This document shows, one piece after another, positions 4,812 to 9,058 of a stretch of 64,000 nt of DNA. Below the pieces are notes generated by a model, which did not search any database, was not told the DNA's origin, and saw only the letters and a program-made list of their open reading frames with translations. Position 1 is the first letter of the stretch, and every line of letters starts with the position of its first letter. Origin of the DNA: Actinomycetota bacterium (lineage in GTDB: Bacteria; Actinomycetota; Geothermincolia; Geothermincolales; RBG-13-55-18); contig JAQVFR010000001.1 of assembly GCA_028697145.1 (NCBI GenBank), positions 62,001 to 126,000 on the forward strand. Reading direction: 5' to 3'. The translations under genes were made by a program, and so were the position numbers.

Positions 4812-5531
4812 TCACGAGACCGACCCCACCAGGCCCCTTACCTGCGTGGGGACCGCGCGGGAGAGCTTTTCCGCCCATTCCAGCAGGACCTCGTCCGCGT
4901 ATCCCTTCATCCCGGAGAGGCTGGCGTCCAGTGTCTTGCCCGGACTGAACTGCTGCAGGACAAGGACCCGCGCTCCCTGCATGCGCGGCGCCAGCGACTC
5001 GAGGTCCTCGAGGCCCACCAGTCCCGGCACCACCGTGCAGCGGAATTCGTGCTCGACTCCACTGGCGATTATGACGTCTATCGACTCGGCGATGTTCATG
5101 GGGTCCAACGGCATGCGCACGACCTCGGCATACCTCTCAAGGGAGGTCTTGACGTCCATCGCCACGAAGTCGGCCAGCCCCCGCGAGATCAGGTCGGCCA
5201 GCATCCGCGGCCGCGAACCGTTGCTGTCGACCTTCACCGGCTGTCCTGTCCCCTTCAACCTGGCGCAGAGCTCAGGCAGGTCTTCGTGGATGGTCGGCTC
5301 ACCCCCGGTGATCGACACGCCATCTATCCACCCGGCGCGCTGGCGCAGGAAGAATTCCAGGTCATCCCATGCCACGTTGTCCTCGCTGCCGCCCGCCTCC
5401 AGCAGCTCGGCATTGTGGCAGTACGGACAGCGGAAATTGCAGCCCCCCAGGAAAAGGACACTGCATACCCTCCCCGGCCAGTCGAGCATGCTCGAGGGAA
5501 GGAGGCCCCTCATGTTCTCCAGGCACGACAT
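4812..5531 (-). CDS. nrdG: Anaerobic ribonucleoside-triphosphate reductase activating protein (radical SAM)
   Basis: LFLGGCNFRCPYCHNAELL (CxxxCxxC radical SAM motif), SITGGEPTIHEDLPEL; lies next to nrdD. Start taken at MSCLENMRG. Confidence 0.9.
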   Translation of the reverse strand: MSCLENMRGLLPSSMLDWPGRVCSVLFLGGCNFRCPYCHNAELLEAGGSEDNVAWDDLEFFLRQRAGWIDGVSITGGEPTIHEDLPELCARLKGTGQPVKVDSNGSRPRMLADLISRGLADFVAMDVKTSLERYAEVVRMPLDPMNIAESIDVIIASGVEHEFRCTVVPGLVGLEDLESLAPRMQGARVLVLQQFSPGKTLDASLSGMKGYADEVLLEWAEKLSRAVPTQVRGLVGSVS

Positions 5532-5533
5532 GT

Positions 5534-5785
5534 TCAGTTGATGAAGTCGGAGACGTCCTTGGGGCTGGGCACGGCGCAGCGCCACGCATGCACCTCGCTC
5601 CCGCCCTCGTCGACGACTACTATCGACGGCGTGCATAGAACGCTGTAATAAGCCGCTTCCGCCAGCCCGTCCGGCTGCTCGATGTCGTATATCTCGGTCT
5701 CGGGAAAACGTCCCGCGACCTCCTTGGCCGCCGGGCACTTCTGGCAATCCTGCTTAACGAAGACCTTGAGATGCTGCACGCTCAA
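5534..5785 (-). CDS. Glutaredoxin/thioredoxin-like protein of the anaerobic RNR locus
   Basis: LKVFVKQDCQKCPAAKEVAGRF (CxxC) and CTPSIVVVDEGG; lies between nrdD and nrdG with a 32-bp overlap with nrdD. Confidence 0.78.
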   Translation of the reverse strand: MSVQHLKVFVKQDCQKCPAAKEVAGRFPETEIYDIEQPDGLAEAAYYSVLCTPSIVVVDEGGSEVHAWRCAVPSPKDVSDFIN

Positions 5786-8564
5786 AACCCCCTTTCAGGT
5801 CCGTCCTGACGCGGTCCTTCAGCTCCCCCAGCTTCCCCTTGTTCCAGGTGGTCACCTTGGAGAAATAGCCGACGATGCGGGTTATGCCGTATATGTTGTC
5901 GGATCCGCACTGCGGGCATTCCTCGTGCAAGCCGCGGTGGGTGCGCTTGCAGTCGTTGCATACCGTGAACTCCGGGGAGAAGGCTATCTGCGACGACTGG
6001 GTGTTGTGGAAGGTCTTGACGACGAAGCTCTTGATGGCCGCCGGATCCGGCCGGCTCTCCCCCAGCCAAATATGGCAGATGGCACCGGCATCGATGAGCG
6101 GGTGGAAGAGGCTCTGCTTCTGCACCCTCTCGATATAGTCGATGTCGGCGTCCACGTTCAGGTGCACGCTGTTGGTGTAGTAGAACTCGTCGTTATCCGG
6201 GCTCCCCTTGAGCACGCGCACGGCCTGGGTGGGGTAATACTTGGTGTCCAGCTTGGCCAGGCGGTAGCCGCTCGACTCGGCGGGCGATTCCTCCAGCACC
6301 AGGTTTATGCCGTGTTGCTGGGAGAGCCGTTTGCAGGTCAGGTTCATGTGGGCGACGACCTTGAGCCCGAACTTCAGCGCCTCCTGGGACTGGTGAAGCT
6401 CCATCCCGGTATGGTACTGCACCATCTCGTTGAGCCCGAGGAGCCCCGCGAGATAGGTCAGGCGCTCCAGCCTCAGGTACGGCTCGCCGTCTTTTGCGTC
6501 GCAGAGTACGGAGAGGGGGCCTCCGACCCCCTGTCCCAGCAGGCTGGCGATGAACTCCTTCTTCTGGATGTGGGCCTTGGCCACCAGCTCCATGGCCTTC
6601 TCCAGCTCGTGGAAGAGGACCTCTTCGGAGCCGTTGGCCTTGTAGGCTATGCGCGGCAGGTTGATGGTGATGTTCTGGAGGGCGGAAAAGCGCATCCTCT
6701 CCGGGCTCATCGCCTCCTCCAGGTCCTCCTCGTTGAGCTTCAGCTTGAGCCTGCAGCACTGGGAAACGGTTATCTCGTCGCCGCGGTCGAACACGAAATA
6801 GGTGATGCCCTGCCGCGAGGCGACCTCGCACGCCAGGTCCAGGAACTCGTCGTGTCCATCGGTGCGGAAGAAGTCGTCGTTGATGTGCAGCAGCGGCTTG
6901 GGGAACACGAAGGTCTTGCCCATGGCGTCCCCCTCGAGATAGACCTCGAACAGCGCCTTGAGGAAGGTCTGCGCCTCCTTCTCGTAGTCTTTGTACGTCT
7001 TGCCCGTGTAGACTCCACCCGGCCCGATGGCCGGGGCGTCCCGGAAGTGGCGCGGGATGCTCCAGTAGAGGTTGAAATCGGTGAACACCACCTGGCTCCC
7101 CCTGGCGCCGGCGAGCTGGTTGAACTCGTAGATCAGCATCTGCGCCAGCTGCCTGATACGGTCGAAGCCCAGCCCCACCAGGTAAGGAGCGAAGAACATG
7201 TTCACGGCCTCCCAGCCGATGGCCCCGGCGTAGTGCGACTGCAGGGTCGAGGCCATCTTGACCATGTGCCCGATGAGCACCTCGGGGTGCTTGGCCGGGC
7301 GCGAGGTGCTGGTGATGTTGGGAAGGGATATGCCGAACTTCTTGATATAGTCCAGGCTATGGCCGCCGCAATTATGGGAATAGATGCCGTTGGCTATGAG
7401 GGTGCCGCTCTCCGTGGTCACATCGTAGATATATACGTCCAGGACCTCAACGGGTTCGGCCATGATGACCCTGGCTCGACGCGCCGCCGGCGCTGCCGCC
7501 ACGCCCGCCCCGTCGCGGCCGCGCCTCGTGCGGGAAACGGATGAGGCCTGCGCGGCCTCGGAGACCAGTTCCTGCAGCCTCCGGTGCGCCAGGAATACGT
7601 CCTCGGCGTTGAAGCGGAACTTGAACGACGTCGCGTTGGCCTCGATAAGGTGGGAGATATCTATCTCCTCCAGGCCCCTCGCCCTGCCCTCCTCGACGTC
7701 CAGCGTCTCCATTTCGTCACCCACCTGCACCATGGAGGCGGGCTTGGTGTCCTCCGAGGTTATCACGGGGTGGTCATGGGTCACCACGCAGTACCTGCGG
7801 TCGGAGGTGGCCAGGAAGACCATCCCCTTGCCCAGGCGGTCCTTTTTCACCACCCGCTTGACGTCGGTCCAGTTGCCCCCGCGATCGAGCATCTCCAGCC
7901 TCCCGGGATACTTGACCCGGACCGTGGGCTCCGGCCTGGTCTCTCCCGGCAGAAGATGGTATAGCTGCTCCATGGTGGTGGTGAAGACGAGGTGCGATCC
8001 CTTGACCCTCCAGTGCACCACGGTATCTCCGATGTAGGAATAAGGCCTGATGATGAAGCCGAGGTCGTGAAGGTGGATGTCCCCGACCATGTGTGCGCGC
8101 GCGATGTCGTCGGAGAAAACGTTGCGCAGGGCGAACTCCTTGAGGATGGCCTCGGCCAGGGTGAGGTTGATGGACTCCGGGTTATGGGTGGTGTTGGAGT
8201 TCTCCTTGTTGGCGCTGGTGATGATCTGCTCGACGTCGTACATGGGCAGGCCCACGTGCGAGTGTTTCTTATGCATGGTCCCCAGGCCGCGCTCCAGCAG
8301 CTCCAGGTCCACGAGCTCGCGGATGATGGAGGTGGTCACGGTGTTCATGTGACCCTGGACTATCCTCTCCTCCACGCGGTCGGCGATCTCCTGCGCCAGC
8401 TCCCGGCTGGCATCGGTCTCCAGCACCAGGGAGTTGACTATCTTGTCCTTGTCCCAGAGGTTTATCTCCTCCTTGGAAGACGTGCTTACCAGGAGGGCTA
8501 TATCGGTGGCGTCCTCGGCCCTTTCCTTTCTTTTCAATACCCTTATATTGCTGGCAGCAGACAC
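5754..8564 (-). CDS. nrdD: Anaerobic (class III) ribonucleoside-triphosphate reductase, intein-containing precursor
   Basis: N-terminal ATP-cone-like region (IRVLKRKERAEDATD...KIVNSLV), GDIHLHDLGFIIRPY, C-terminal zinc site CNDC...CPQCG and glycyl-radical motif RIVGYFSKVTTWNKGKLGEL. Confidence 0.95.
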   Translation of the reverse strand: MSAASNIRVLKRKERAEDATDIALLVSTSSKEEINLWDKDKIVNSLVLETDASRELAQEIADRVEERIVQGHMNTVTTSIIRELVDLELLERGLGTMHKKHSHVGLPMYDVEQIITSANKENSNTTHNPESINLTLAEAILKEFALRNVFSDDIARAHMVGDIHLHDLGFIIRPYSYIGDTVVHWRVKGSHLVFTTTMEQLYHLLPGETRPEPTVRVKYPGRLEMLDRGGNWTDVKRVVKKDRLGKGMVFLATSDRRYCVVTHDHPVITSEDTKPASMVQVGDEMETLDVEEGRARGLEEIDISHLIEANATSFKFRFNAEDVFLAHRRLQELVSEAAQASSVSRTRRGRDGAGVAAAPAARRARVIMAEPVEVLDVYIYDVTTESGTLIANGIYSHNCGGHSLDYIKKFGISLPNITSTSRPAKHPEVLIGHMVKMASTLQSHYAGAIGWEAVNMFFAPYLVGLGFDRIRQLAQMLIYEFNQLAGARGSQVVFTDFNLYWSIPRHFRDAPAIGPGGVYTGKTYKDYEKEAQTFLKALFEVYLEGDAMGKTFVFPKPLLHINDDFFRTDGHDEFLDLACEVASRQGITYFVFDRGDEITVSQCCRLKLKLNEEDLEEAMSPERMRFSALQNITINLPRIAYKANGSEEVLFHELEKAMELVAKAHIQKKEFIASLLGQGVGGPLSVLCDAKDGEPYLRLERLTYLAGLLGLNEMVQYHTGMELHQSQEALKFGLKVVAHMNLTCKRLSQQHGINLVLEESPAESSGYRLAKLDTKYYPTQAVRVLKGSPDNDEFYYTNSVHLNVDADIDYIERVQKQSLFHPLIDAGAICHIWLGESRPDPAAIKSFVVKTFHNTQSSQIAFSPEFTVCNDCKRTHRGLHEECPQCGSDNIYGITRIVGYFSKVTTWNKGKLGELKDRVRTDLKGGFERAASQGLR
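7371..8039 (-). mobile_element. Mini-intein (223 aa) in NrdD, no homing endonuclease recognised
   Basis: In-frame insert between IIRPY and CGGHSLDYI: block A SYIGDTVV, block B-like RRYCVVTHDHPVIT, block F/G VLDVYIYDVTTESGTLIANGIYSHN followed by +1 Cys. Confidence 0.9.
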
Positions 8565-8593: not shown

Positions 8594-9058
8594 CTACCCG
8601 TCCTCTTTTTTCTCGAGAAGCTGGCCCAGTTCGCTCTGGAATTCGCTGATATCCTTGAAATCCTTGTACACGGATGCGAACCTGAGGTAGGCGACCTCGT
8701 CGATCTCCTTGAGTTTCCTGAGCACCGCCATGCCGATCGCGCTGGCGTTGATCTCCTTCTTCCCCTCCTCCCTGAGCTCCGCCTCTATCTCCGAGGTCAG
8801 ATCCTCGATCTGCTGGCTGGTCACCGGCCTCTTCTCGAAAGCCTTCCCCAGCCCGATCCGTATCTTCTCCCTCTTGTAAGGCTCGCGGTCTCCGTTGCGC
8901 TTGATGACCGTTACCGGGAACTGCTCGAACCTCTCGAAGGTTGTGAACCTTCTCCTGCAGCCCTTGCATTCCCTTCTTCGCCTTATTACCTGCCCGTTTT
9001 CGGCGCTTCGTGAGTCGATCACCTTGCTGTCCGGGTTTCCGCAATAGGGGCACTTCAT
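8594..9058 (-). CDS. nrdR: Transcriptional repressor NrdR
   Basis: MKCPYCGNPDSKVIDSRSAENGQVIRRRRECKGCRRRFTTFERFEQFPVTVIKRNG: zinc ribbon plus ATP-cone. Confidence 0.97.
   Translation of the reverse strand: MKCPYCGNPDSKVIDSRSAENGQVIRRRRECKGCRRRFTTFERFEQFPVTVIKRNGDREPYKREKIRIGLGKAFEKRPVTSQQIEDLTSEIEAELREEGKKEINASAIGMAVLRKLKEIDEVAYLRFASVYKDFKDISEFQSELGQLLEKKEDG

Follow-up and report, generated by a model that had tools for sequence, protein, structure and literature searches.

The nrdD gene of this actinobacterium encodes a class III anaerobic ribonucleotide reductase that is broken by a segment of 223 residues, and the question that the locus raises is what this segment is, where it came from and by what route the enzyme might be restored. 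In the window, the whole 64,000-nucleotide stretch of DNA analysed here, the nrdD precursor gene occupies 5754..8564 on the (-) strand, with 936 codons and a GTG start, and its product is matched by PF13597 at 480 bits and by TIGR02487 at 430 bits (cut-off 326). The nrdR regulator lies upstream (8594..9058, (-); TIGR00244, 199 bits, cut-off 124.65) and an nrdG-type activase downstream (4812..5747, (-); TIGR02495, 190 bits, cut-off 131.15), the true start of the latter probably being downstream of the start of its open reading frame. A small open reading frame in the interval between nrdD and the activase (5534-5785, (-)) has a glutaredoxin-type-like reading, QDCQKCPAAKEV, and found no match in an NCBIfam search. 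The same genome also encodes a second ribonucleotide reductase large chain (G000:C13:21052-22449; L155 and L156), matched by PF02867 in two pieces, so that NrdD is possibly not its sole source of deoxynucleotides.

The insert in NrdD and its identity

The insert spans 7371..8039 (-), runs from SYIGDT to GIYSHN and forms residues 176-398 of the 936-residue product, where it breaks the sequence HDLGFIIRPY|CGGHSLDYIKKFG. Homologue alignment and empty-site DNA define an N-extein of 175 residues (8040..8564, (-)) that ends in HDLGFIIRPY, and homologue alignment defines a C-extein of 538 residues (5757..7370, (-)) that starts with CGGHSLDYIKKFG. The insert was deleted in silico, which gives the predicted junction ...RPYCGGHSLDYIK, and the resulting extein of 713 residues was compared with NrdD at 80 loci of GTDB species, sampled as one genome per species within the phyla named here.

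The initial annotation had placed a Ser1 intein in nrdD at 7371-8039 and had called for an alignment with homologues lacking it; that alignment, from which the segment is indeed absent, together with the open reading frame and the profile matches, bears out the host and the boundaries to the base. About 25 actinobacterial homologues and the majority of the more remote ones have no break at residues 175/176 of the extein alignment, which is unbroken in L010, L012-L018, L020-L022, L024-L026 and L029-L034. In L001-L009, L027 and L028 the extein match falls into two pieces split at 175/176, with a gap of 642-669 bases that is always a multiple of three. Homologues free of the insert reach 70-80% extein identity, and the empty-site DNA of 13 homologues reads ...RPY^CGGHS... 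without a scar, which is the sequence that excision had been predicted to restore.

It is the comparison of folds that settles the identity of the insert as an intein. An AlphaFold2 model, built from an alignment of 16 sequences, has a pLDDT of 77 and a pTM of 0.69, with linker stretches 133-145 and 166-183 below pLDDT 50, and Foldseek comparison with the PDB gave 44 chains at E<=0.001. The top matches are inteins (the best 7oec, E 1.9e-8; also 5o9i and 2lcj), and the Ser1 inteins 5o9i, 9hth and 8cpo are all within the first 14. The two profiles originally suggested as a check for the Hint domain gave a divided answer: TIGR01443 (intein_Cterm) matches the C-terminus of the insert in the whole protein at 19.0 bits (cut-off 15.6), whereas TIGR01445 (intein N-terminus) does not match the window sequence at E<=0.001. 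Weak TIGR01445 matches at E<1 (best 0.00068) were given by 11 of 12 relatives, and Pfam Intein_splicing also matches relatives weakly (L006, E 2.9e-6). The homing endonuclease that had been thought missing is missing by the same kind of evidence, as the insert alone has no Pfam match, LAGLIDADG and other endonuclease domains included; its 223 residues compare with 334-433 in endonuclease-size relatives, as befits a mini-intein. Judged by its profile match and modelled fold, the insert in NrdD is a Hint-domain intein without a homing endonuclease. Elsewhere in the genome no intein was found with TIGR01445 or PF14890, two models that also miss the NrdD mini-intein.

Block A (SYIGDTVVHWRV; 8004..8039, (-)) opens with Ser1 (codon TCC, 8037-8039), block B or N3 is T87-H-D-H90 (7770..7781, (-)), and blocks F/G (IYDVTTESGTLIANGIYSHN; 7371..7430, (-)) contain Asp206 at F:4 and the terminal His222 and Asn223. 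Ser1, Thr87, His90, Asp206, His222 and Asn223 do not vary among 12 family members and Cys+1 comes next in all, so the serine, the final His-Asn and the +1 cysteine of the initial annotation also stand. The conserved positions S1, T87, H90, D206, H222 and N223, with C+1, match the residues expected of class 1 inteins (PMC4031507). Class 2 is made up of inteins without Ser1, Thr1 or Cys1 (PMC5222942), and Ser1 is present here; class 3 has a WCT motif with Cys at F:4, and F:4 is Asp206. Nor does the insert fall in the 'cysteine-less' Ser1/Ser+1(Thr+1) subgroup, having Cys+1 and, at the place of the 'NX' histidine, Lys65-Lys66-Asp67. Lys65-Lys66 (7842..7847, (-)) is where alignments put this histidine of other Ser1 inteins (motif from PMC10189870); hhalign sets it opposite Asp67 rather than Lys65-Lys66, a one-residue uncertainty in where the gap falls, and His is absent there too, as it is from the surroundings of this place in the mini-inteins.

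The place taken by LAGLIDADG in relatives is here a linker (about residues 113-188; 7476..7703, (-)) that is fast-evolving, rich in Arg, Ser and Ala, and partly disordered in the model. An endonuclease remnant was considered, MAFFT having matched the linker, and in it an 'invariant' Arg142, to the second LAGLIDADG repeat; it was rejected at a profile-profile probability of 0.07%, with 143 of 200 column-shuffled controls scoring equally well.

Distribution, inheritance and relatives at the same site

A search with an insert profile found the insert, in open frame and without stop codons, in all 15 genomes searched of f1, the window's own family of uncultured actinobacteria, and also, in open frame, in one genome of family f3 in the same order (G017); it was absent from both genomes of family f2. 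The G017 intein spans a contig break (L154, L035) and begins RPY|SYMGE, with Ser1. That the same in-frame insert recurs with all its splicing residues in 15 of 15 searched family genomes excludes chance. Values of dN/dS (Nei-Gojobori, compared pairs) were about 0.07-0.17 in the splicing blocks of the intein and no higher than about 0.14 in the exteins, ratios that are approximate because dS is near or above 1 in several pairs; in most compared pairs the linker has a higher dN than the splicing blocks. The extein tree groups the f1 mini-inteins (0.975), with the intein-less L010 and L014 next and L035 apart, and the placement of L010/L014 and L035 requires at least one loss or transfer. The picture suggested by these data is of a mini-intein that lost its endonuclease and has since been inherited vertically, kept by purifying selection. 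A phage source was considered and rejected: none of 50,697 phage records matched, and the relatives in IMG/VR were all larger and distant.

The identical position in NrdD is occupied by inteins in other Actinomycetota (L011, L067, L107 and L097; 380-424 residues, all Thr1), in archaea of the phylum of L036 (L133 and L134, Thr1), in an Omnitrophota genome (L060, Ser1) and on IMG/VR contigs (L102, Ser1; L161-L182, Ser1 or Thr1; L159/L160, Cys1). Among about 40 such inteins residue 1 is always Ser, Thr or Cys, never Ala, Gly or Pro; Thr1 is found in 14 of the 35 of a reduced set, and Cys+1 in every same-site relative. A profile detects LAGLIDADG_3 in L011 and L060, and most others tested have a DOD-type motif. 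The C-extein of the viral relatives tested matches Pfam NRDD, and in six cases out of seven the match opens on the +1 residue, which falls at profile position 58.

The splicing-domain tree joins the Ser1 mini-inteins and the Thr1 intein L097 with 98/99 support inside a larger Thr1 group, and in a wider tree, with the residue 1 and NX columns masked, they join at 100/100. The codons at residue 1 are ACN in Thr1 forms and TCN in the mini-inteins, a difference of one base, and from these relationships we infer that the change in the mini-intein lineage ran from Thr1 to Ser1. At the NX place, nine Ser1 inteins have His (L060, L102, L162, L163, L165, L166, L168, L169 and L175), the Ser1 intein L173 and the whole mini-intein family have Lys, all Thr1 inteins have Lys or Arg, and the Cys1 one has Ile. 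Since those nine combine Ser1 and Cys+1 with the NX histidine, Cys+1 alone cannot account for its loss; the mini-intein family apparently has Ser1 without the NX histidine by virtue of its Thr1 ancestry. Residue 1 and the NX place covary at the level of sequences (Ser with His 9 against 1, Thr with a residue other than His 14 against 0; Fisher p 8e-6), but this was rejected as independent evidence, the tree having four changes at residue 1 and two at NX; with so few changes the association mostly reflects relatedness and stays a lead.

Several further observations concern NrdD inteins more widely. The same-site intein of genome G008 (L097/L108), Thr1 and otherwise full, ends in SKN rather than SHN, and this penultimate Lys may mean poor splicing or compensation. 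A second NrdD intein, at L027:2965-4686, L028:4450-6180 and L035:792-2513 and also in L108 of G008, has 574-577 residues in three complete copies and the junction GARG|S...HN|SQVVFTDF; it is Ser1/Ser+1, with the NX histidine (IRH) and LAGLIDADG_3 (tested in L027). One NrdD protein can thus hold two Ser1 inteins of differing chemistry, one Ser1/Ser+1 and one at the site before the catalytic Cys. More inteins at other NrdD sites were seen in L134, L136, L127, L102, L161 and L173, from archaea, genomes of the Omnitrophota phylum and viral contigs, and some NrdD proteins of these sources carry two or three. A break in the NrdD match, with about 45-100 extra codons, lies close to the C-terminal zinc site in L063, L064, L068, L070, L071, L079 and L080.

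The catalytic cysteine and the proposed route of splicing

The +1 Cys (TGC, 7368..7370, (-)) aligns with Cys125 of Thermotoga maritima NrdD (motif MPYC, counted along the printed chain), and this cysteine, Cys125 in T. maritima, Cys79 in T4 and Cys175 in Escherichia coli, is conserved and acts in the reductive half-reaction (PMC4493059). In the P. copri enzyme, where a second essential cysteine is on the first barrel strand (PMC11226230), the aligned chain position 175 fits the published Cys171, given extra residues in the chain. By these alignments the mini-intein directly precedes the NrdD catalytic cysteine, and one residue would therefore both act as nucleophile in the splicing of the precursor and take part in enzyme catalysis.

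We consider it probable, at about 0.78, that the insert, whose site in NrdD is fixed, is a cis-splicing mini-intein, which would take a class 1 route through a Ser1 ester and would descend from an endonuclease-bearing Thr1/Cys+1 intein. The class 1 route by way of the ester is favoured because Ser, Thr and Cys are the only residues found at position 1. The Hint domain would fold within the NrdD precursor, and Thr87, His90 and Asp206 would activate the bond before Ser1, onto which the N-extein would move as an oxygen ester. Attack on this ester by Cys+1 would produce a branched thioester, Asn223 would cyclise with the help of His222 to release the intein, and an S-to-N shift would ligate ...RPY to CGGHS... 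and restore NrdD. In the ancestor, an endonuclease-bearing Thr1/Cys+1 intein, the endonuclease would have been lost and Thr1 changed to Ser1 (ACN to TCN), with vertical inheritance thereafter. Both splicing itself and the order of its steps are what we infer from sequence.

Against the Ser1-ester route, the transfer from oxyester to thioester is thermodynamically uphill (PMC11766414), and the mini-intein family has Lys where other inteins have the NX histidine that aids their Ser1. It could instead be supposed that Cys+1 attacks the bond before residue 1 directly, as in class 2, with Ser1 or Thr1 not the true nucleophile. Ser1 and Thr1 would be weak nucleophiles next to Cys+1, Thr1 is frequent among the relatives (14 of the 35 inteins of the reduced set have it), and the NX histidine is missing from the Thr1 forms and the mini-intein family alike; the best solved match in a single-sequence search (phmmer, PDB) is moreover the class 2 Ala1/Cys+1 intein MJ0781 (KlbA), a weak match at E 0.013. 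However, class 2 is defined by the missing Ser1, Thr1 or Cys1 (PMC5222942), position 1 at this site is never Ala, Gly or Pro, and the penultimate residue of the mini-intein is the usual His, against Ser in KlbA, so that we regard direct attack as unlikely, though it is the strongest competitor of the ester route.

An intein that no longer splices and only cleaves, or an inactive insert tolerated in an enzyme that the cell can do without, would agree with the second large-chain gene (PF02867), by which another reductase of the NrdA/NrdJ kind is encoded. The strict conservation of the splicing residues, the low dN/dS in both the exteins and the blocks of the intein throughout the family, and the intact frame in 15 genomes make this very improbable. 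That the insert occurs in every family member searched would also suit an ordinary extra domain of NrdD, but a domain at this point would part RPY from the catalytic cysteine, the site is empty and free of scars in homologues with 70-80% extein identity, and the insert has a Hint fold and an intein end motif; this explanation we find scarcely credible. The spliced class 1 mini-intein is the reading that we prefer. More tentatively, and with rather less than even confidence, it could be proposed that the NrdD site hosts an ancient bacterial, archaeal and viral lineage with hydroxyl-1/Cys+1 chemistry, of which the Thr1 forms and the Ser1 mini-intein would do without the NX histidine in splicing, through a modified step 1, whether a Lys-assisted ester or direct Cys+1 attack, and so constitute a mechanistic subgroup of their own.

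Relation to known inteins

The rarity that had been claimed for Ser1 holds in that it is uncommon, but Ser1 is well known together with Ser+1 or Thr+1, and it is the pairing of Ser1 with Cys+1 that is unusual. In Ser1/Ser+1 and Ser1/Thr+1 inteins the NX histidine is critical, and the GOS-TerL split intein (Bachmann and Mootz 2015) is described as the only known Ser1/Cys+1 intein, one without the NX His (PMC10189870), and as the first of its kind (PMC11766414). Compared by description, GOS-TerL shares with the NrdD mini-intein Ser1, Cys+1 and the absent NX histidine; it is split, lies in a terminase gene, comes from metagenome data and has been demonstrated to splice, whereas the NrdD mini-intein is contiguous, fixed in a bacterial family and known from its sequence. 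Two open papers make GOS-TerL the sole or the first case of the pair, and there may be unremarked cases in databases, for example in Methanocaldococcus jannaschii. The NrdD inteins of M. jannaschii are listed in InBase as RNR-1/RNR-2. Phage NrdD inteins are also known, for example in Clostridium phage c-st and Lactococcus phage 949 (PMC3653736), and both these and the M. jannaschii ones, likened to the mini-intein by host gene alone, share its class III reductase host.

The PolB16, Aes123 PolB1, Mvu/Mja TFIIB and Psp Pol inteins resemble the mini-intein in Ser1 and the Hint fold (5o9i, 9hth, 8cpo), and differ in having the NX His and a hydroxyl +1 residue where it has Lys and Cys. The larger same-site inteins (L011, L067, L107, L097, L133, L134, L060, L102, L161-L182) share its insertion point and an alignable splicing domain, but are of 365-433 residues (one 334), are mostly Thr1, or Ser1 with the NX His, and in most of those tested have a LAGLIDADG domain or motif. 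MJ0781 (KlbA) is similar in Cys+1 and in a basic residue close to the NX position, and differs in Ala1 and in having Ser, not His, before the terminal Asn (PMC7765530). The kind of intein is already known, and what sets this form of it apart is the Ser1/Cys+1 pair, the Thr1 ancestry and the position at a catalytic cysteine.

The NrdD site adds many further Ser1/Cys+1 inteins, at least nine of them with the NX histidine, and makes the question of this residue testable in natural proteins in which host, site and +1 residue are all equal. The mini-intein family offers a clear natural example of an intein that lost its endonuclease and then became fixed in a host gene, and in these bacteria a single cysteine would serve both splicing and NrdD catalysis.
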